Assembly: GCA_023145515.1 (NCBI GenBank)
Contig: JAGLDP010000019.1
Coordinates: 1-36,675, forward strand
Direction of reading: 5' to 3'
Length of the DNA: 36,675 nt
DNA from: Bacteroidales bacterium
GTDB lineage: Bacteria; Bacteroidota; Bacteroidia; Bacteroidales; UBA12481
Below are positions 1,115 to 21,843 of the stretch, piece after piece. Positions within the stretch are counted from its first letter, which is position 1. Every line of letters begins with the position of its first letter. The notes under the pieces are model-generated. The model was given only the letters and a program-made list of their open reading frames with translations, was not told the DNA's origin and made no database searches. The position numbers and the translations under genes were made by a program.

Positions 1115-4100
1115 ATGAAAATATCTTCCTTCAGGTTCCTGAACCTAATACTTGGCTGGATAGCCTTCCTGATAGCCTTTATTACCTTTTATCTGACTAT
1201 GGAACCCACCGTTTCATGGTGGGATGCTGGTGAATTTATTGCTTCTGCTACTAAGCTCGAAGTGGGTCACCCTCCAGGAGCCCCCCTGTTTATGCTCATT
1301 GCACGTGTTTTTGCCTCACTGGCTGGTGAGCCAACGCAAATTGCTAAAATGGTTAACCTGGTTTCTGTGCTGGCCAGCGCTTTTACAGTTATGTTTCTTT
1401 ACTGGACTATCGTACACCTGGCTAGAAAAATGGCTGGCTGGAATAAAGATTATTCACTGACCGAGAAGATTTTTATCTTGGGATCAGGGATGGTTGGAGC
1501 TCTTGTGTTTACTTTTTCTGATTCATTTTGGTTCTCCGCCGTCGAAGGGGAAGTATATGCCCTGTCGTCTTTGTTTACCGCTGTTGTATTCTGGGCCATT
1601 CTGAGGTGGGAAGCTGAAGCAGAAAAATCGTCTGCAACACGCTGGATTTTGCTCATTGCCTACCTTACCGGCTTGTCAATTGGCGTGCATCTGCTTAACC
1701 TCCTGGCAATTCCTGCTATGATTTTTATCTATTATTTTAAAAAATATAAACCAACTCCTAAGGGTATCTTTTATACTTTTTCCCTATCGGTTTTCTTGGT
1801 GTTGGTAATTATGTATGGAATAATTCCGGGACTGGTATTGATGGCATCATGGTTTGAATTATTTTTTATTAATCTGCTTGGACTGCCTTTCAATACCGGG
1901 GTTATCCTGTTTATCGTATTGCTAATAGGTTTTACTGCGCTGGGGATTTATGTAACACATAAAAGAGGCAAGGTGCTGTGGAATACTGTGTTGCTCGCGT
2001 TTACAATGATTGTAATTGGGTATTCATCATATTCTATCCTGGTGATCCGGTCAAACGCAAATACACCTATGGAGCAGAATAATCCGGATGAAGTATTTCG
2101 GATGATCAAGTACCTGAACCGGGATCAGTATGGCGACCGACCTTTGCTTTTCGGACAATATTACACGGCACCGGTGTTATACGGTGAACCTGGAAAGCCA
2201 ACATATACAAGGGTAGATGATAAGTATGAAATTACTGATCATAGGCAAGTACCGGTTTTTGATAAGCGGTTTTTAACCATATTTCCGCGTATGTGGCATA
2301 ATAGTGCACAGCATGCCCAGTCATACAAGGAATGGGCATTGATTAAGGGAAAGCCTATTCAGGTTGAAGGACAGGATGGTGAACTAAAACGTGTGATAAA
2401 ACCAACTTTTACCGAGAATCTCAGGTTTTTCTTTTCATATCAGCTCGGACACATGTATTTCCGTTACTTCATGTGGAATTTTGTGGGTCGTCAGGATGAT
2501 ATTCAGTCGCATGGTGGCATTCTTCATGGAAATTGGCTTAGTGGAATTGGTTTTGTAGATGATGCTCGACTTGGTTCGCAGGAAATGATTCCTGATTCTG
2601 CCCTGAACCATAAATCGCGGAATGTATATTATTTTCTACCTCTATTATTGGGAATAATCGGGGCCGTTTATCAATACCGTAAGGGGAAGAAGGATTTCTG
2701 GGTGATTATGCTCCTATTTGTTTACACCGGAATTGCTATCGTGGTTTATCTTAACCAATGGCCAAATCAACCCCGTGAACGAGATTACGCTTTTGCCGGA
2801 TCATATTATGCTTTTGCGATATGGATTGGATTGGGGATACTGGGATTGATGGGGATCGGCCGTAGACGGAAAGGTGGGCAGAATAATGGGCATAGACGAG
2901 GGTCTGTCACTGTTGCCATGATCACGATACTTGCCGGCTTATGTATTCCGGCCTTAATGGCATCACAAAATTGGGATGATCATGATCGTTCTAATCGTTA
3001 TATGGCCAGAGATTTTGCCTATAATTATCTGAATTCCTGTGCCCCGAATGCTATTCTTTTTACCAATGGTGATAATGATACTTTTCCGCTTTGGTATGCC
3101 CAGGAAGTAGAGGGCGTGCGTACTGATGTGCGTGTGATTTGCCTTCCATACCTGGCTGCTGATTGGTATATTGAGCAGATGTACAGAAAGGTGTACGATT
3201 CAGATCCTATTCCATTTTCACTTGCGAAGCACCAATATCGTATGGGAACACGTGATTATATTCCTGTATTTAAGCGGATTGAGGAAAGACGAGATATTCT
3301 TGAGATTATTGAGTTTGTAGCCTCTGATGATGAAAGAACTAAAGTGCCTCTTCGTGATGGTACTTCGATTGACTATTTGCCAACAAATAAAGTGAGAATG
3401 CTTGTAGATTCTGCTCAGGTGATGAGAACGGGTACAGTGCAACCTGAGGATGCAGATAAAATTGTTTCGGTTATCGAATGGGATTTGAAATCAGGTGGAA
3501 TTGGGAAAAACGACTTGATGATTCTTGACCTGATAGCACACAATAATTGGGAACGTCCGATTTATTTCACCTCAATTATGCATCAGAATATTAATGGCTT
3601 GCAGAATTACTTCCAATTGGATGGCCTGGCTTATCGCTTTGTTCCGATTAATACCGAATCATCAGGAGGGAGGGCCTCACATATTAATACAGATCTGCTT
3701 TATGATCGTTTTATGAATGAATTTAGCTGGGGCCAAATGGACAATCCTGATACCTGGGTTGATTATTATACTCAGCGAACAGTTATGATTCTCAGAATAC
3801 GTTATAACCATACCTTGCTGGCTGAAGCTCTTCTGGCTGAAGGGAAAATCACAAAAGCGGTTGAGGTACTTGACAGGGTTGTGCAGATTATGCCTAAAGA
3901 GCAGTTCCCTTATGAAATCTTTGCTGCTGGTATTGCAGAAACATATTATAAATGTGAAGAAGTTGAAAAAGCTAATGTGCTGATCAATAGTTATCTTCAG
4001 GATGTATACCAGGATTTAGCTTATTATATTGATCTTCAGACTTCTGCAGGTAGTATGCTGGGCGATGAGGCCCAACGGGCTGCATCTATTCTGTCAGAGA

Positions 4101-4189
4101 TCGATAGACTGACCAGAAAGTATGGACAGATTGAAATCGCTGAAAGCATTCAAAGCCGGATAAATGAACTTTTAGGTAATGGTTCATGA
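1115..4189 (+). CDS. DUF2723 family multi-pass membrane protein (TMEM260 / protein O-mannosyltransferase-like)
   Basis: N-terminus 'FYLTMEPTVSWWDAGEFIASATKLEVGHPPGAPLF' is diagnostic of DUF2723; many TM segments; soluble, likely TPR-like C-terminus. Confidence 0.92.
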   Translation: MKISSFRFLNLILGWIAFLIAFITFYLTMEPTVSWWDAGEFIASATKLEVGHPPGAPLFMLIARVFASLAGEPTQIAKMVNLVSVLASAFTVMFLYWTIVHLARKMAGWNKDYSLTEKIFILGSGMVGALVFTFSDSFWFSAVEGEVYALSSLFTAVVFWAILRWEAEAEKSSATRWILLIAYLTGLSIGVHLLNLLAIPAMIFIYYFKKYKPTPKGIFYTFSLSVFLVLVIMYGIIPGLVLMASWFELFFINLLGLPFNTGVILFIVLLIGFTALGIYVTHKRGKVLWNTVLLAFTMIVIGYSSYSILVIRSNANTPMEQNNPDEVFRMIKYLNRDQYGDRPLLFGQYYTAPVLYGEPGKPTYTRVDDKYEITDHRQVPVFDKRFLTIFPRMWHNSAQHAQSYKEWALIKGKPIQVEGQDGELKRVIKPTFTENLRFFFSYQLGHMYFRYFMWNFVGRQDDIQSHGGILHGNWLSGIGFVDDARLGSQEMIPDSALNHKSRNVYYFLPLLLGIIGAVYQYRKGKKDFWVIMLLFVYTGIAIVVYLNQWPNQPRERDYAFAGSYYAFAIWIGLGILGLMGIGRRRKGGQNNGHRRGSVTVAMITILAGLCIPALMASQNWDDHDRSNRYMARDFAYNYLNSCAPNAILFTNGDNDTFPLWYAQEVEGVRTDVRVICLPYLAADWYIEQMYRKVYDSDPIPFSLAKHQYRMGTRDYIPVFKRIEERRDILEIIEFVASDDERTKVPLRDGTSIDYLPTNKVRMLVDSAQVMRTGTVQPEDADKIVSVIEWDLKSGGIGKNDLMILDLIAHNNWERPIYFTSIMHQNINGLQNYFQLDGLAYRFVPINTESSGGRASHINTDLLYDRFMNEFSWGQMDNPDTWVDYYTQRTVMILRIRYNHTLLAEALLAEGKITKAVEVLDRVVQIMPKEQFPYEIFAAGIAETYYKCEEVEKANVLINSYLQDVYQDLAYYIDLQTSAGSMLGDEAQRAASILSEIDRLTRKYGQIEIAESIQSRINELLGNGS

Positions 4190-4857
4190 AAATAAATTTC
4201 AAAAAGAGAATTAAAATCAGACTACTAGCTAGTCCTCCAAAATATCTTCGGTTTTTATACGGACGTACAGTATGGAAGGTTAGCACTAATGAAAATGAGT
4301 TATTCATAACATTTGATGATGGTCCGGTTCCTGAACTAACACCCTGGGTTCTTGATACTCTGAAGAGCTACAATGCAAAGGCAACTTTTTTTTGCGTAGG
4401 TGATAATGTGAGAAAGTATCCTGAACTGTATGATCGTATTCGTAAAGAAGGGCATGGTACAGGTAATCATTCATATAGTCATCTGAATGGATTCAAAGTA
4501 TCACTTCGTCGGTATATAAAGAATGTGTTCGAGGCTAAACGCTATATTGACTCAGATTTATTCAGGCCACCTTATGGTTCGCTGCGATTTTTAACCAGGC
4601 TTATCCTTAAATCCAGGTTTCGTATTATCATGTGGGATATTCTGAGTATGGATTATGATCGTAGCATGAAACCCCGGCAGGTAGTTAGAAATGTGATTGG
4701 AAATGTGACCCCGGGTTCTATCGTTGTTTTCCACGATAACCTGAAAGCAAAAACTAATTTGGAATATACTCTTCCAAGGATTCTGGATTATTATTCCAAA
4801 AGAGGCTACTCTTTCGTAAATTTGCAGGAGAGATTAGAAAACCAAGTAGGCAAGTAA
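4186..4857 (+). CDS. Polysaccharide deacetylase (NodB domain) family protein
   Basis: 'LFITFDDGPVPELTPWVLDTLKSYNAKATFFCVGDNV' and 'GHGTGNHSYSH', 'RPPYG' motifs; ATGA overlap with the upstream gene. Confidence 0.92.
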   Translation: MKINFKKRIKIRLLASPPKYLRFLYGRTVWKVSTNENELFITFDDGPVPELTPWVLDTLKSYNAKATFFCVGDNVRKYPELYDRIRKEGHGTGNHSYSHLNGFKVSLRRYIKNVFEAKRYIDSDLFRPPYGSLRFLTRLILKSRFRIIMWDILSMDYDRSMKPRQVVRNVIGNVTPGSIVVFHDNLKAKTNLEYTLPRILDYYSKRGYSFVNLQERLENQVGK

Positions 4858-4870
4858 GTAATATACTAAC

Positions 4871-6139
4871 ATGAATGTACTAGTTATTGGATCAGGAGGA
4901 CGAGAACATGCTTTGGCATGGAAAATCGCTCAAAGCCCGTTGTTGAATAAACTATATATAGCTCCAGGGAATTCAGGCACAGAGGAACATGGCGAGAATG
5001 TTTCTCTTGACACTAATAATTTTCCCTTAGTGGTTGATTTTCTTCGCGAAAAAAATGTAAAAATGCTTGTGGTTGGTCCTGAAGACCCACTGGTTATGGG
5101 GATTAATGATTATGTCAGAATGCAGCCCGATCTGAAGGATATCAAGGTTGTTGGTCCTAATTCTGAGGCTGCACAATTAGAGGGTAGTAAGGAATTTGCC
5201 AAAGAATTCATGGCACAAAATAATATCCCTACTGCTAAATATGCTAGTTTTTCAATTGAAGATCTGGAGCAAGGAAAAATATTTCTTGATAGCATGGAGG
5301 CTCCATACGTTTTGAAAGCTGATGGCTTGGCCGCTGGCAAAGGGGTGGTAATTCTTGATGATCTTGAAGAAGCAAAGGCTGAATTAGAGAGCATGCTGGG
5401 TGGGAAATTTGGAATGGCTTCAGAAAAGGTTGTTATTGAAGAATTTCTCTCGGGAATTGAATTGTCAGTGTTTGTTCTGACTGATGGAACTCATTATCAC
5501 ATGCTTCCAAATGCCAAGGATTATAAACGGATTGGCGAGGGGGATACCGGATTGAATACCGGGGGGATGGGCGCTATTTCACCTGTTCCTTTTGCAGATG
5601 AAAGTTTTATGAAAAAGGTTCTTGATCGTATTGTGGAGCCTACGATTAATGGATTTAGTGCTTATGGTTTACACTATGAAGGATTTGTTTTCTTTGGTCT
5701 GATTAATGTAGATGGCAACCCATACGTTATTGAATATAATGTGAGATTAGGTGACCCTGAATCAGAGGTTATCATTCCAAGAATTAAGACAGATCTTTTG
5801 GCTTTGATGGCCAAAATGGGAACACCACAATTTGAATCAGCAAAAGTTGAATTTGACCCTCGGGCTGCAACAACAGTGATGCTTGTTTCAGGTGGATATC
5901 CGGAGGGCTATAAAAAGGGCTTAGAAATATCAGGACTAGATATGGTTGAGGGTTCAATAGTATTTCATGCCGGGGCTAAGAATAGTGATGATGGAATTGT
6001 TACCACCGGCGGTAGGGTTATGGCAGTTACCTCAATGGATTCAGAATGGAAGAATGCTCTCATAATGAGCTATGTTAATGCAGCAATGATCCAGTTTGAA
6101 GACATGGATTTCAGGAAGGATATAGGATTTGATTTGTAA
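4871..6139 (+). CDS. purD: Phosphoribosylamine--glycine ligase
   Basis: 'MNVLVIGSGGREHALAWKIAQSP', 'VLKADGLAAGKGVVI', 'NTGGMGAISP', 'EYNVRLGDPE' motifs. Confidence 0.97.
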   Translation: MNVLVIGSGGREHALAWKIAQSPLLNKLYIAPGNSGTEEHGENVSLDTNNFPLVVDFLREKNVKMLVVGPEDPLVMGINDYVRMQPDLKDIKVVGPNSEAAQLEGSKEFAKEFMAQNNIPTAKYASFSIEDLEQGKIFLDSMEAPYVLKADGLAAGKGVVILDDLEEAKAELESMLGGKFGMASEKVVIEEFLSGIELSVFVLTDGTHYHMLPNAKDYKRIGEGDTGLNTGGMGAISPVPFADESFMKKVLDRIVEPTINGFSAYGLHYEGFVFFGLINVDGNPYVIEYNVRLGDPESEVIIPRIKTDLLALMAKMGTPQFESAKVEFDPRAATTVMLVSGGYPEGYKKGLEISGLDMVEGSIVFHAGAKNSDDGIVTTGGRVMAVTSMDSEWKNALIMSYVNAAMIQFEDMDFRKDIGFDL

Positions 6140-15244: not shown

Positions 15245-15414
15245 GTTGGCTTGGTTAATTGGGAGGAGGAGGCTTCATTCAATACTTAATCCTATTTCCT
15301 AGCCTTAAGTTCTATTTTCTTGCATTCTCATTTCACTTTTTTTGTACCAGTAATTTGGTTTTTCACAAATTGAGGTCTACATTTATGTGTTTATTTAACA
15401 CTTAATTATTGTTT

Positions 15415-17316
15415 ATGAAAAAAATTACACTACTTCTACTTGCTATTGGTATGTTCTCTTTTACCAGTAGTTTTGCACAAACCAAAAGCCTGAAGGGTAA
15501 TGGTGAGGTGTTTTATTCCACAACGTTTGACTGGGGGAATCCTGCTGATGAAAAGGGATGGACAGCTCCAGATGGATTTTATTTTGAAGATCCAGATGAC
15601 ACTGGATTCAATTGGCATTGGTATCCTAATGATAGTTTGCATGCTCAGTACGTTAATGAACCCCCCATGGGATCAAGTTCACCTAAAGACGGACACCTTG
15701 CTTTAGAGCTAAACCTCTATAATAATTTCTCTGATGCAAGAATTGATGTGAATAATGCTGTTGTATTTCCAACATTTGATTGTAGTGAACATAGCTCTGT
15801 TATCGTGAGATATGAAACGCAATTTATGTCCTACTCTACAACAGCGGGTATGGAAATGATGATCTCAAATGATGCAGGAGTTCACTGGGCAACATATAAT
15901 GTTGGATTTGGTGGCGGACATAAAGCACGTCCAAATGGTGCTGCTGCAGGTACTGTTGCTATTTTTGAGGCCAATATCTCTGATGTTGCAGCAGGAATGC
16001 CTGAGGTTATTATCAAAATCAATTGGTCATTAACCAGTCTTTATTTTTGGCTAATTGATGATTTCCAATTGCTTGAAGCCTGGGATAATGACTTGCAGAT
16101 GAAATATTTTACCGTAGAATGGGACGATGGTGATGTTGGAACTGTTGAAAGCTATACCCATAACTTACCAATTACTCAAATAGGTGGAGCTCTAACTAAT
16201 TTTGAATCAGCAGTAGTTAATTTTGGTGAAGTGGATCAATGGGGTACTCACCTTAATGTTGATATCAGTAAAAATAATCAGAGTATTTGGAACAATTCAA
16301 CTGAACCAATTGCTTTAGATGTTCTATCGATAGATACAGCCATTGTAGCTGAATCGTTTACACCGACGGAATTTGGGCATTACAAAATCACTTATGATTT
16401 CGCGTCGGAAGAGGATGAACAGACACCTGAAAATGATATCGCTGAAGCATTCTTTAATGTTACAGACTCTCTTTATTCACGTTGTGATGATACCGCAGAG
16501 GAATCCTTCGTTTGGGGACTTGACGCTTATGGTGATGAAGGTATGCCAAATGAGCAACATTTTGTTGGCTCCATATTCCCAATATACGGGGATACCGAGA
16601 TAGATGCTATTTCAGCATTTGTTACTGGTGGACTAGCCGATGGGGAGATTGAATTTAGAATGGCATTGTATGTTTTACCACCTCCAGAAGATGAAGATCA
16701 AACACCACTTGAATGGTTAACTTCTGAGGTTGTTGTACTTGATTCAGCTATGTTTAATACCTGGGTAACTTTGCCTCTGGAAAAGGATGGTGAATCTGAA
16801 TTTCTATTAGAAGGAGACATGTGTTATGCTGGTGTGGAATACTGGAACTGGCATACTGAAAATATTCCTTATAAGAGATATCAGAACTTTGCAATAGGTG
16901 CTGACACAGGAATAGAAGTGAATGATCCTGTTTCTATTGTTAGAGGTGCTCCTGAGAATGATTTCGGACAGGGAATCACACAGGGCAGAAAATTAATGGT
17001 TCGTATGCTTCTTAATGATCATTCAAACATCATTGATGGGGTTGACCTAAGCGGAGCAGCAAGTATGCTTGAGCAAAACTATCCTAATCCATTTGTTGGA
17101 GTTACTAATATCAGCTATGAATTATCGCAATCTAATGACGTTAGTATTGAGATTTCAGATATATCTGGAAGAATTGTCATGATTCTTAATGAAGGCAACA
17201 AACCTGCAGGTGCTCATGCAATTACAATTAGTGCCGACAATCTTGAATCAGGGATTTATTTCTACACTCTGAAGGCCGGGCAATTTACTGAAACTAAGCG
17301 AATGGTGATAAACTAA
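15415..17316 (+). CDS. Secreted T9SS type A sorting domain protein (paralog A)
   Basis: Signal peptide MKKITLLLLAIGMFSFTSSFAQ; C-terminal 'LEQNYPNPFVGVTNISYELSQ...SGIYFYTLKAGQFTETKRMVIN' typical of T9SS cargo. ORF track start is 15409; ATG at 15415 is equally plausible. Confidence 0.88.
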   Translation: MKKITLLLLAIGMFSFTSSFAQTKSLKGNGEVFYSTTFDWGNPADEKGWTAPDGFYFEDPDDTGFNWHWYPNDSLHAQYVNEPPMGSSSPKDGHLALELNLYNNFSDARIDVNNAVVFPTFDCSEHSSVIVRYETQFMSYSTTAGMEMMISNDAGVHWATYNVGFGGGHKARPNGAAAGTVAIFEANISDVAAGMPEVIIKINWSLTSLYFWLIDDFQLLEAWDNDLQMKYFTVEWDDGDVGTVESYTHNLPITQIGGALTNFESAVVNFGEVDQWGTHLNVDISKNNQSIWNNSTEPIALDVLSIDTAIVAESFTPTEFGHYKITYDFASEEDEQTPENDIAEAFFNVTDSLYSRCDDTAEESFVWGLDAYGDEGMPNEQHFVGSIFPIYGDTEIDAISAFVTGGLADGEIEFRMALYVLPPPEDEDQTPLEWLTSEVVVLDSAMFNTWVTLPLEKDGESEFLLEGDMCYAGVEYWNWHTENIPYKRYQNFAIGADTGIEVNDPVSIVRGAPENDFGQGITQGRKLMVRMLLNDHSNIIDGVDLSGAASMLEQNYPNPFVGVTNISYELSQSNDVSIEISDISGRIVMILNEGNKPAGAHAITISADNLESGIYFYTLKAGQFTETKRMVIN

Positions 17317-17411: not shown

Positions 17412-17443
17412 GGTGATTCAGTGATTCGGTGATTCAGTTATTG
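17412..17443. repeat. Four 8-bp repeat units (GGTGATTC/AGTGATTC/GGTGATTC/AGTTATTG)
   Basis: Direct reading; the last unit contains the minus-strand stop codon (TTA on + at 17438-17440) of the PLP-enzyme gene. Confidence 0.9.
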
Positions 17444-18421
17444 GAAGAGGGCTATTGTTCCTCCTGTGTGCCAGAATAGTACTTTGTCTGTTGGTTTGAA
17501 GAATCCTTTTTCAATGTAAGCCAATAGTCCTGATACAGCTTTGGCACTATAGGTTTGGTCTAATAGGATTCCGGCTTTTTCTGCAAACAGTTTTTCTGCA
17601 ATTAGAGAAGCTTTTGTGGGAACTCCATAAGCTGTTCCCATATAATCAGTTTCAACCTGGATGTCATCATCATTGATAGTAAAAGGCAATTGGAGCTTAT
17701 TGATAATTGGATCAGCAGCAAGGTGGACAGATGCACTTAACTCCTCTGGCGTGCTGTCGGCACTCATTCCAATGATTTTAGCATTCAATCCAAAAAGCTT
17801 TTTTCCCAGAATCAATCCGGCTTGAGTCCCTCCTGATGAGCTGGCATGCAGAATGTAATCAAACGATAATCCTAATTCTTCTTCTTGTACTTTTATTTCC
17901 TGAGCAGCCTTGATAAAGCCCAGGGTTCCGAATTCATCAGATGCCCCCAGGGGAACAATAAGAGGCTTTTTCCCTTCTGCGATTAAAGCATTTGCAAGCT
18001 CCTCCATTTTTGGAATCCTGTCTGTTCGCGTAGGTACAGCATGGATTGTCACTCCTAGCTTTTTGTTAATAAGGTAATTGCCTCTTGCTTGCTCAGGCGT
18101 CTCCCCATTAAGCACAAGAATTACATCAAAACCTTCTTGTCTGGCTACCTGGGCAGTGGTGCGGGCATGATTTGATTGCATCCCTCCCGTGGTTATCAGG
18201 GTATCTACGCCTTGTCTTCTGGCTTCGGCAAAAGTATACTCTAGTTTCCTGAGCTTATTTCCCCAAACAAGTGGTCCGATATAATCGTCTCTCTTGATAA
18301 ATACTCCGGGGCTGGAAGAGGATTTGTTATACAGAAACTTAAGCTCCTGAATAGGTGTATTTAGTGGGGCCAAGGATAATCTGGGAAGTAGATCAAACAG
18401 CTTCTGACTTTTCTCAATCAT
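17438..18421 (-). CDS. PLP-dependent D-cysteine desulfhydrase / ACC deaminase-like protein
   Basis: 'LPRLSLAPLNTPIQEL...GVFIKRDDYIGPLVWGNKLRKLEYTFAEARRQGVDTLITTGGMQSNHARTTAQVA', 'HASSSGGTQAGLILG', 'FWHTGGTIALF'. Confidence 0.92.
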   Translation of the reverse strand: MIEKSQKLFDLLPRLSLAPLNTPIQELKFLYNKSSSSPGVFIKRDDYIGPLVWGNKLRKLEYTFAEARRQGVDTLITTGGMQSNHARTTAQVARQEGFDVILVLNGETPEQARGNYLINKKLGVTIHAVPTRTDRIPKMEELANALIAEGKKPLIVPLGASDEFGTLGFIKAAQEIKVQEEELGLSFDYILHASSSGGTQAGLILGKKLFGLNAKIIGMSADSTPEELSASVHLAADPIINKLQLPFTINDDDIQVETDYMGTAYGVPTKASLIAEKLFAEKAGILLDQTYSAKAVSGLLAYIEKGFFKPTDKVLFWHTGGTIALFQ

Positions 18422-18537: not shown

Positions 18538-20448
18538 ATGAGAAAAATTTTACTCTTTATGCTAGCTCTTGGTATGTTTTCTTTTACCAGTAGTATGGCA
18601 CAAACCAAAAGTCTGAAAGGTAATGGTGAGACGTTTTACATGACAACCTTCGATTGGGAGGATCCGGCGAATGAAAAAGGCTGGGCTGCTCCGGAAGGAT
18701 TCTATTTCGAGGATCCTGATGATAATGGATTTAATTTTCACTGGACACCTAATGATAGTATAATTGGGACATGGACCAGAGAAGTTCCATGGGAATCTTC
18801 TTCAAAAGAAGATGGTCATCTGGCATTATTACTTGACAATTATAATACCTTGATGGGTACAGAATTGAGTGTCAATAATTCCATAGTTTTCCCAACTTTT
18901 GATTGTTCAGATAAATCATCTGTGATTGTACGATATGAAACCAGTTTCATGTGTTATGCTGGTGCTTGGGAAATGCAGGTGCAGGTTTCAAATGACGCTG
19001 GTGTTCACTGGGCTGCTTATGATGCAGGTTTTGCGTGTGGCCATAAAGACCGTCCGGATGATATCAGTTCAGGACAGGTGGCAATATTTGAAGCTAATAT
19101 TTCAGAAGTTGCTGCAGGGATGTCTGAGGTAATCATTAAGCTTTTCTGGGGAGGAACTACCTGGTATTTCTTGCTGATTGATAACTTTGAATTAGCTGAA
19201 GCCTTTGACAATGACCTTCGTATGGAGCATTATGTGTTAGAATGGGATGATGGAGACGAGAACTCTGTTGAGAGTTATTTCCATAATATTCCAATATCCC
19301 AAATAGGTGGTGCATTCAAAAACTTCGAATCAAGTGTACTGAATTTTGGAGAAGAGGATCAATGGGGAACCTACCTTGAGGTGGATATTTCAAAGAATAG
19401 CCAGAGTATTTGGAATCAGACAACTGATCCTGAAATGATGCCTACGTTGTTCATGGATACTATGAGAGTTCCTGATGTTTTTACCCCGACAGATTTTGGA
19501 CATTATAAGGTTTCTTATGATTTCAAACAGGAAGAAACAGAGCAATCTCCTGAAAACGATATGGCAGATGTCTTCTTTAATGTTACCGATAGTGTATATT
19601 CCAGAACTGATGATACTTCTGAAGAATCTTACGTATACGGATTTGAGGCTTATGGTGCAGAGGGTGTGCCTAATGAGCAACACTTTGTTGGAAGTCAATT
19701 GCCAATTTATGGTGATTGCGAAGTAGATGGTGTATCAGTTTACGTTGCAGGTGGTTTAGCCGATGGCGAAATTGAGTTCCGTGGTGCCTTGTACTGGGTT
19801 CCTCCGGTAGATGAGGATCCTGAAGGATTAGGAGCCATAGAATGGTTGTCTTCAGAGATTGTTGTTCTAGATTCATCTATGCATGATACATGGGTGTATT
19901 TCGAATTTGAAAAAGATGGAGAGTCTGAATTCCTTATGGCAGGAGATAATGTTTATGCTGGTGTAGAGTATTGGAACTGGCATACTGAAGTGGTACCTTA
20001 TAAGCGTTATGAGAACTTTAAAATTGGATCAGATGTTGGCGTTAAGCTAAATGATCCTGTCTCTATAGTGCGTGGAGGTGTTGAAGCAGGATGGGATGAT
20101 GGAACTACTGTTACCAAGAGAAAATTTATGGTGAAGCTTTTCATTAATGATCATAGTAATCGTACAGATGGAGTGAATCTTACTGAGAGTTCAACAGTAT
20201 TGAATCAGAATTATCCAAATCCATTTGTAGGAAGCACAGAAATTAGTTACGATTTAGGCCAGTCGTCAGATGTTACTGTTGATATAACTGATATGACCGG
20301 ACGAGTTGTTCTAAGTCTTGATCAAGGATATAGAGTTGCCGGTACACATACTTGTGCTATTAGTGCAGAGAACCTGGAGGCAGGGATTTATTTCTATACT
20401 TTGAGAGCCGGACAGTTTACAAAAACTATGCGAATGGTGATTAATTAG
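18538..20448 (+). CDS. Secreted T9SS type A sorting domain protein (paralog B)
   Basis: Collinear with the 15415-17316 product over its full length; signal peptide and 'LNQNYPNPFVGSTEISYDLGQ...AGIYFYTLRAGQFTKTMRMVIN'. Confidence 0.9.
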   Translation: MRKILLFMLALGMFSFTSSMAQTKSLKGNGETFYMTTFDWEDPANEKGWAAPEGFYFEDPDDNGFNFHWTPNDSIIGTWTREVPWESSSKEDGHLALLLDNYNTLMGTELSVNNSIVFPTFDCSDKSSVIVRYETSFMCYAGAWEMQVQVSNDAGVHWAAYDAGFACGHKDRPDDISSGQVAIFEANISEVAAGMSEVIIKLFWGGTTWYFLLIDNFELAEAFDNDLRMEHYVLEWDDGDENSVESYFHNIPISQIGGAFKNFESSVLNFGEEDQWGTYLEVDISKNSQSIWNQTTDPEMMPTLFMDTMRVPDVFTPTDFGHYKVSYDFKQEETEQSPENDMADVFFNVTDSVYSRTDDTSEESYVYGFEAYGAEGVPNEQHFVGSQLPIYGDCEVDGVSVYVAGGLADGEIEFRGALYWVPPVDEDPEGLGAIEWLSSEIVVLDSSMHDTWVYFEFEKDGESEFLMAGDNVYAGVEYWNWHTEVVPYKRYENFKIGSDVGVKLNDPVSIVRGGVEAGWDDGTTVTKRKFMVKLFINDHSNRTDGVNLTESSTVLNQNYPNPFVGSTEISYDLGQSSDVTVDITDMTGRVVLSLDQGYRVAGTHTCAISAENLEAGIYFYTLRAGQFTKTMRMVIN

Positions 20449-20543: not shown

Positions 20544-21440
20544 ATGAATATTCCCGTTATTTGTGTTGAAGAAAAAACAATGGCCGAAGCTTATGAAAAA
20601 GCACTGGTCAGATTGTACAAAGAAGGAACCAAGTTCAGAACTCAGTATGATAAACCTGGTGATCCTCTTAGTATAGATTGTACAGTTAATATCACAATCC
20701 TGGAGCCTGAAACAGATCCGATGATTCATAAGGCCTTTCCGGGAGGTATTGATGACCTGAAAGAATATGTTATGGAGCTCAAAGGCTTCAAAGATGATTG
20801 GGTGAAAAATATGAACGATCCGGATGATACACGATGGGAATATACTTATCATGGCAGACTGGCAGCTTATGGGTCGTGGAAGGAGCTGAAAGATATCTCT
20901 GATAAAGGCTCTTCTTTTGTTGCTGGCTTTACTGTAGATCAGATTGAGCTTGCAATCCAAAAATTGATTGCCCAACCTTTCACCAGACAGGCTCAAATGA
21001 TTACCTGGATGCCCAACCTGGATGCAGAAGTGTATGATTCTCCCTGCCTGCAATCACTATGGTACAGGATACTGGAGGATGAAGATGGCGTTTATTGGTT
21101 AAACTCTAATATCCGTTTTCGGAGTAATGATGCGTGGGGAGCAAACTTTATGAACATGTTCGGATTTGTGCAGTTTACTCGTGAAGTGATTGCTGATGAG
21201 ATTCAAAAAAGAACTGGCAAAACTGTAAAGCTGGGTAGAATGAACTGGCAGGCCGATTCATACCATATCTATGGAAAAGACATTGAAAGTGCTAAAGGAC
21301 TGCTTTTTGACCGCTTAGAAAGCTTGACCTTTGAAGAGCGTACTTATAATTTCCATGATGAATTTATTCAGGAAATGTACCAAATGGCCGAACCAATGGT
21401 TCTTCAAAAGATTAAAAACTACAAGGAACAACATGCCTGA
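20544..21440 (+). CDS. Thymidylate synthase-like protein (non-canonical/archaeal-like TS family)
   Basis: 'EVYDSPCLQSLWYRI' (catalytic Cys region), 'IRFRSNDAWGANFMNMFGFVQFTREVI' (R-S-x-D-like motif), 'ADSYHIYGKDI' (HIY motif). Confidence 0.8.
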   Translation: MNIPVICVEEKTMAEAYEKALVRLYKEGTKFRTQYDKPGDPLSIDCTVNITILEPETDPMIHKAFPGGIDDLKEYVMELKGFKDDWVKNMNDPDDTRWEYTYHGRLAAYGSWKELKDISDKGSSFVAGFTVDQIELAIQKLIAQPFTRQAQMITWMPNLDAEVYDSPCLQSLWYRILEDEDGVYWLNSNIRFRSNDAWGANFMNMFGFVQFTREVIADEIQKRTGKTVKLGRMNWQADSYHIYGKDIESAKGLLFDRLESLTFEERTYNFHDEFIQEMYQMAEPMVLQKIKNYKEQHA

Positions 21441-21843
21441 GAAAGTCTATTTCTGCGGTTCAATACGAGGCGGACGATCAGATAGAGAAATCTATGTCGG
21501 GTTAATCCAACATATTTCACAATACGCTACCGTTCTGACTGAGCATATTGGAGACCTTACAGTAGAAGCTGATCATGAACTAACAGACAAACAGATTCAT
21601 GATCGGGATATGGAATGGCTTGTAGAATCAGACCTGATTATCGCAGAGGTTACCCAAGTCAGCCTGGGCGTAGGGTACGAAATCGGACGGGCATTAGAAA
21701 AAGGAAAACCGATAGTTTGTCTTTATAGAGATGAAGGTAACAAGCGACTTTCAGCCATGATTTCAGGCTGCTCAGCAATCAAAACATTTCATTATTCCAA
21801 CCTGAGCGAAGCCAAAGAAATTCTTGATACTATCCTGGTATAG
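21433..21843 (+). CDS. 2'-deoxynucleoside 5'-monophosphate N-hydrolase-like (DNPH1/RCL, nucleoside deoxyribosyltransferase superfamily)
   Basis: MPEKVYFCGSIRGGRSDREIYVGLIQHISQYATVLTEHIGD...IHDRDMEWLVESDLIIAEVTQVSLGVGYEIGRALEKGKPIVCLYR...LSAMISG closely resembles the remembered human DNPH1/RCL sequence. ATG 21433 preferred over 21331, since it gives an 8-bp overlap with the upstream gene. Confidence 0.88.
   Translation: MPEKVYFCGSIRGGRSDREIYVGLIQHISQYATVLTEHIGDLTVEADHELTDKQIHDRDMEWLVESDLIIAEVTQVSLGVGYEIGRALEKGKPIVCLYRDEGNKRLSAMISGCSAIKTFHYSNLSEAKEILDTILV

Follow-up and report, generated by a model that had tools for sequence, protein, structure and literature searches.

Cellular 5-hydroxymethyl-dUMP (hmdUMP) is usually regarded as a product of damage or of phages, and human DNPH1 is regarded as an hmdUMP sanitiser and is a cancer drug target. 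To our knowledge, dUMP hydroxymethylase has so far been known as a phage enzyme. The closest functional precedents for the gene pair described here are MilA and MilB of the mildiomycin pathway, a CMP hydroxymethylase and an hmCMP N-glycosidase (PMC5175136, PMC4081090), and the thymidylate synthase (TS)/nucleoside 2-deoxyribosyltransferase pair of the bacimethrin operon in Clostridium and Paenibacillus, in which TS-like and PF05014 genes are adjacent (PMC5627462). A preliminary description of the locus, which pointed to TS-superfamily enzymes acting on dUMP or dCMP and to human DNPH1, had left both of them out. Researchers have found that hydroxymethylases carry a two-part signature, namely Asp/Glu three residues ahead of the catalytic Cys (Cys-3), which activates the incoming water and where TS has Leu, and Ser/Thr two residues ahead of the catalytic Tyr (Tyr-2); the D145N substitution abolishes hydroxymethylation by the T4 enzyme (Park and colleagues, PMC6400193). 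In E. coli TS (EcTS), N177 picks uracil over cytosine (PMC8670742), and deoxyribose is selected by Ser167 together with an Arg, positions at which MilA has Ala and Lys (PMC5175136). In human DNPH1, the catalytic residues are Y24, D80 and E104 with E55/H56, and phosphate is bound by S98/S128 (PMC10603095); the main substrate that the enzyme cleaves is hmdUMP (PMC10483697).

Results

Layout of the gene pair

The window, that is, the whole 36,675-nt stretch of Bacteroidales DNA that was analysed, contains overlapping TS-like and DNPH1-like genes exactly where the preliminary description had placed them:

20544-21440, plus strand: TS-like ORF of 298 aa, ATG start, TGA stop at 21438-21440, PF00303 match; predicted dUMP 5-hydroxymethylase-type enzyme
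21433-21843, plus strand: predicted DNPH1/RCL-type 2'-deoxynucleoside 5'-monophosphate N-hydrolase of 136 aa, ATG at 21433, PF05014 and human DNPH1 matches
21433-21440, plus strand: 8 nt shared by both coding sequences, in different frames
21423-21427, plus strand: AAGGA, putative SD-like element read from the sequence, 5 nt upstream of the DNPH1-like ATG

Given the SD-like AAGGA and the overlap, re-initiation at the DNPH1-like ATG is plausible, and the translational coupling proposed earlier may hold for this locus. Of the relatives, only the nearest one (L032, 85% identity) retains the overlap; a short gap separates the two genes in L033, and in the remaining same-strand loci they lie tens of nt to 2.8 kb apart; thus, coupling, as read from these layouts, is local and no family-wide trait. 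The GC content of the pair's region showed nothing unusual against its surroundings.

The window also encodes two paralogous T9SS-sorted secreted proteins (15409-17316 and 18538-20448) on either side of a PLP gene (17438-18421, minus strand; D-cysteine-desulfhydrase/ACC-deaminase-like), and in most of the family the TS-like gene is accompanied by a homolog of the second secreted protein. In two family members without a TS-like gene, the DNPH1-like gene is either fused in frame to a D-cysteine-desulfhydrase/ACC-deaminase-like PLP protein (G007, L124:517-1932, 471 aa) or directly adjoins one (G004, L126:434-1923). A DNPH1-like domain also lies in frame with a secreted protein that has a T9SS-like tail in G597 (L168:589-1911, 440 aa), possibly through a lost stop codon.

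The TS-like protein belongs to a subfamily distinct from ThyA

The PF00303 match of the TS-like protein is weak (2e-7, 30.9 bits) but over the gathering score of 24.3, and the catalytic Cys (C168) is present. The PPCH motif and the C-terminal closing tail of ThyA are absent, and in their place the protein has D-x-P-C-L and, according to both the alignment and an AF2 model (pLDDT 89), a C-terminal helix. Foldseek searches with this model, the structure prediction proposed in the preliminary description, returned ThyA structures and MilA at TM about 0.5-0.57. The reported motif 'SPCLQSLWYRI' was found as described, with 'DPPCLQSLWYR' as the subfamily consensus. The departure from PPCH is real in that the His is missing, but it is not diagnostic alone, since B. 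subtilis TS-A is also without this His; the argument that PPCH loss means a non-TS enzyme was dropped for this reason. With a profile of the TS-like family, the methanogen-virus TS scored 48 bits, phage pyrimidine hydroxymethylases 22-36 and phage ThyA 19. Judged by these sequence features, the protein is a member of a distinct, strongly conserved TS subfamily and is not ThyA.

The best NCBIfam model was the methanogen TS family TIGR03283, at 100.4 bits under a cut-off of 174.55. The match spans the full length of the protein, N-terminal region included, and the protein exceeds the model in length by about 90 residues. This family is presumably dTMP-forming, and the control M. jannaschii has PF00303 without ThyX, consistent with TIGR03283 being a true TS family. 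The full-length match to this best curated family thus speaks for an alternative in which the TS-like protein is a second, archaeal-type TS converting dUMP to dTMP, as a backup or under specific conditions, and DNPH1 is a general cleaner of the dNMP pool that became its neighbour by chance. Against this alternative, the score falls well short of the cut-off, and the match is not diagnostic: TIGR03283 is also the top-scoring model for SPO1 gp29, a known dUMP hydroxymethylase, and for a phage protein that carries a pyrimidine hydroxymethylase annotation, so that this match alone cannot separate methylation from hydroxymethylation.

The distribution of other TS genes bears on the same alternative. 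The TS-like gene is the only TS gene detected in the window's own assembly, which is 63% complete, and neither thyA nor thyX was found there; a same-genus genome has canonical ThyA at 413 bits together with the TS-like gene. Canonical ThyA of about 400 bits was present in every other family member checked, the TS-like gene being an extra in a subset of them, and no ThyX was found in the same-genus and family relatives. When 50 TS-like-bearing genomes from the collection scan were checked for ThyA and ThyX, 41 had another TS, which was canonical ThyA in 28 and a ThyX match instead in 13 (one weak, 54.7 bits). The nine carriers with neither enzyme, which are MAGs, would fit a second TS of archaeal type, as would a Spirochaetales MAG with no match to either ThyA or ThyX, whose TS-like gene lies between purH-like and glyA genes (G740; L105 2994-7215, with a split purH-like ORF pair, TS-like and glyA (SHMT) in a row on one strand). 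Several of the carriers with neither TS have close ThyX-bearing relatives (G719 beside G717, G742 beside G741), as expected of incomplete MAGs, and incompleteness is therefore the simplest reading. At the subfamily level, the TS-like protein is an extra enzyme and not its genome's thymidylate synthase; a role as sole TS was rejected for the subfamily because relatives and 41 of the 50 carriers also have ThyA or ThyX. With another TS already in so many carriers, we regard a second, archaeal-type TS as unlikely.

A large phage contig (L174, IMGVR_UViG_3300037851_000141, 331 kb) carries canonical ThyA, TS-like and DHFR genes within 4 kb (2001-5902). The presence of ThyA and the TS-like gene together on this jumbo-phage contig suggests that these TS-superfamily enzymes differ in their roles.

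Active site of the TS-like protein

We aligned 38 TS-like members, numbered them from the window protein and mapped them onto EcTS. D165, P167, C168, R193-S194-N195-D196, N204, H241 and Y243 were invariant in 38/38, with EcTS equivalents C146, R166-S167-x-D169, N177, H207 and Y209. In the window, the motifs lie as follows:

21036-21047, plus strand: D165-S-P-C168, candidate hydroxymethylase signature, Asp three residues ahead of the catalytic Cys; D165 and C168 invariant (n=38)
21120-21155, plus strand: R193-S194-N195-D196 ... N204, predicted phosphate/deoxyribose motif and uracil-selecting Asn, equivalent to EcTS R166, S167, D169 and N177
21264-21272, plus strand: H241-I-Y243, predicted 3'-OH binding pair, equivalent to EcTS H207/Y209; invariant in the alignment

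Asp stands at Cys-3 in all hydroxymethylases inspected (SPO1 gp29, T4 gp42, MilA and phage pyrimidine hydroxymethylases), and Leu stands there in the ThyA proteins of the relatives. The comparison with hydroxymethylases that had been suggested for this active site thus reveals hydroxymethylase-type features, namely D165 and the lack of a TS tail. SPO1 gp29 shares with the TS-like protein the D-x-P-C, TRQ, RSND-WGxxxxN and DS-x-H-x-Y motifs and is likewise without the ThyA tail, but its overall similarity is low (22 bits to the TS-like profile) and its role is in phage genome modification. The second part of the signature is absent, as Y100-T101-Y102 of the TS-like protein puts Thr one residue ahead of the Tyr instead of two; SPO1 gp29 also lacks Ser/Thr at Tyr-2. 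A serious caveat is that a methanogen-virus relative of TIGR03283 (136 bits), the sole methanogen-side sequence in the comparison, also has Asp at Cys-3, so that this residue may fail to separate methylating from hydroxymethylating enzymes.

As to the substrate, Asn204 and Ser194, the invariant equivalents of the uracil and deoxyribose determinants Asn177 and Ser167, predict deoxy-uridylate. A MilA-type ribonucleotide specificity was ruled out on residues, the TS-like protein having Ser194 and Arg148 (the equivalent of the deoxyribose-selecting Arg) where MilA has Ala176 and Lys133.

The DNPH1-like partner

The DNPH1/RCL-like identity proposed for the second gene was borne out by a PF05014 match (5e-15) and by strong full-length similarity to the rat RCL (5e-35) and human DNPH1 (1e-32) chains; with 0.25 for MilB, the protein is far closer to DNPH1 than to MilB or deoxyribosyltransferases. 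By alignment, it keeps every catalytic and phosphate-binding residue of human DNPH1: Y6, E37, H38, D59, S77, E83 and S107 correspond to human Y24, E55, H56, D80, S98, E104 and S128, which comprise the triad (Y6, D59, E83), E37/H38 and the phosphate-binding Ser residues (S77, S107). These residues are strongly conserved in the alignment across 21 homologs. Unlike the human and rat enzymes, the window protein is bacterial and operonic with a TS-like gene.

Association of the two genes

The collection scan gave 187 TS-like relatives. The best 80 of these 187 have 66-85% identity to the TS-like protein and belong to Bacteroidota, Verrucomicrobiota, Kiritimatiellota, Fibrobacterota, Ignavibacteriota and Spirochaetota. 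A DNPH1 homolog adjoins the TS-like gene or lies within about 3 kb of it in 21 of the 80 loci, against DNPH1 anywhere in 15 of the 295 genomes of the window's order; the adjacency is therefore beyond chance. DNPH1 is also the only non-trivial recurrent neighbour among the 80 loci. A conserved third partner was rejected, as nothing recurs beyond local synteny, and the AIRS gene adjoining the TS-like gene in L099, considered as purM, looks like selD instead.

It could be argued that the two genes have no functional link and stand side by side in the window's family through synteny inherited from an ancestor. In that family, the T9SS-TS-DNPH1 order is indeed common by descent, and the same-strand arrangement seen in the window's clade forms one clade on the TS tree. 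Against this, a second Bacteroidota clade keeps the genes convergent, mostly tail to tail, in a different gene neighbourhood, and in other families the two genes co-occur unlinked (G577 and 8 of 40 further carriers). In the window's own order, where the TS-like gene is rare (7/295 genomes), DNPH1 occurs in 5/7 TS-like carriers versus 10/288 other genomes (Fisher p = 3e-6, phylogeny not corrected), and the association holds without the window's family (p = 5e-4, relatedness not corrected). We therefore consider unrelated neighbours very unlikely. On the DNPH1 tree, which has many weak branches, the TS-adjacent proteins do not form one clade.

DNPH1 was absent from 32 of the 50 sampled carriers, mostly outside Bacteroidota, and 10 of the 15 DNPH1-bearing genomes in the order are without a TS-like gene. 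Among cultured carriers, Maribellus sediminis and Draconibacterium aestuarii have the two genes at separate places, and Pontiella sulfatireligans has the TS-like gene without DNPH1. DNPH1 is thus an optional partner, a Bacteroidota add-on, and not obligatory. Substitution by another PF05014 enzyme was rejected, because most of the DNPH1-less carriers have no other PF05014 protein. The maker/breaker pair of the preliminary description is accordingly supported in part, as a conserved association, seen in two geometries and with catalytic residues kept, but not as a fixed partnership. The outcome named there as speaking against it, a sole TS combined with an adjacency that is not conserved, is not what we found, as ThyA or ThyX is present in relatives and most carriers and the adjacency recurs.

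Viral contigs hold 10 TS-like loci, some on contigs >300 kb, and two of the viral members (L172, L173) fall inside bacterial diversity on the TS tree. This placement, together with the lack of DNPH1 in most bacterial carriers, would agree with a TS-like enzyme that was acquired by exchange with large phages and supplies hmdUMP, or a different 5-substituted dUMP, as a precursor of DNA or of a metabolite, DNPH1 being only a safety valve in some Bacteroidota. Since genes such as an hmdUMP kinase or a modified-base transferase do not recur beside the bacterial TS-like genes, this alternative as a whole seems distinctly improbable to us. A plasmid- or phage-borne module was rejected: the TS-like protein had no match among plasmids and only partial matches of 25-35% identity among phage records, DNPH1 was absent from the viral sets searched, and no viral TS-like gene adjoins DNPH1. 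On a 78-kb contig called viral, the TS-like gene is preceded upstream by an ORF that looks purM-like on inspection by eye (L175 1839-2810).

Discussion

The logic of the pair is best read, by analogy, as that of MilA/MilB and the bacimethrin pair, moved to deoxyuridylate and with a DNPH1-type hydrolase. As in mildiomycin biosynthesis, a TS-superfamily enzyme is combined with a PF05014 N-glycosidase, here predicted to act one after the other on a 5-hydroxymethyl pyrimidine nucleotide, and MilA likewise has Asp at Cys-3 and no TS C-terminal tail. The differences are that the TS-like determinants predict deoxyribose and uracil, that the partner is DNPH1-type and not MilB-type, and that no antibiotic cluster surrounds the window pair. 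The bacimethrin pair sits in a thiamin-antivitamin operon, and no such genes are present at the window locus. From the methanogen TS family, the protein also differs in that its carriers have another TS.

The gene structure, the subfamily membership, the co-occurrence with ThyA or ThyX, the residue conservation and the association of the two genes are read directly from the sequences; from them we infer the following chemistry, substrate, reaction order and biological role. Cys168 of the TS-like enzyme would attack C6 of dUMP, and a methylene group would be added from methylene-tetrahydrofolate; the exocyclic methylene would then be hydrated, not reduced, by a water molecule activated by Asp165, with hmdUMP and THF as products. 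Cleavage of hmdUMP by the DNPH1-like enzyme would then proceed via a Glu83-glycosyl intermediate to 5-hydroxymethyluracil (hmU) and deoxyribose 5-phosphate. Such a two-enzyme module for hmdUMP, with a putative maker and breaker, is the most economical of the readings considered, and we judge its odds to be about even. The purpose of the pair may be free hmU, just as MilA/MilB yield hmC; alternatively, the cell may make hmdUMP for another use while DNPH1 keeps it out of DNA. Because DNPH1 is often absent, we lean to hmdUMP for another use, with the excess disposed of. No downstream pathway genes for the module were found, and in the open-access literature that we searched there was no description of a TS-like/DNPH1 pair.

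More broadly, it is possible, with a probability somewhat short of even, that a cellular dUMP hydroxymethylase exists in free-living bacteria of several phyla, and that in many Bacteroidota it is combined with a DNPH1 ortholog, which would provide a physiological cycle of hmdUMP or a way to produce free hmU. If this is true, DNPH1 would gain a natural metabolic partner from a bacterial make-and-break pair, and a so far unassigned TS subfamily, present alongside ThyA or ThyX in several phyla, would be accounted for. With two small proteins, deliberate bacterial synthesis of 5-hydroxymethyl-dUMP would become a directly testable question. Our analysis suggests that some ordinary bacteria, and not phages alone, may make and dispose of 5-hydroxymethyl-dUMP.
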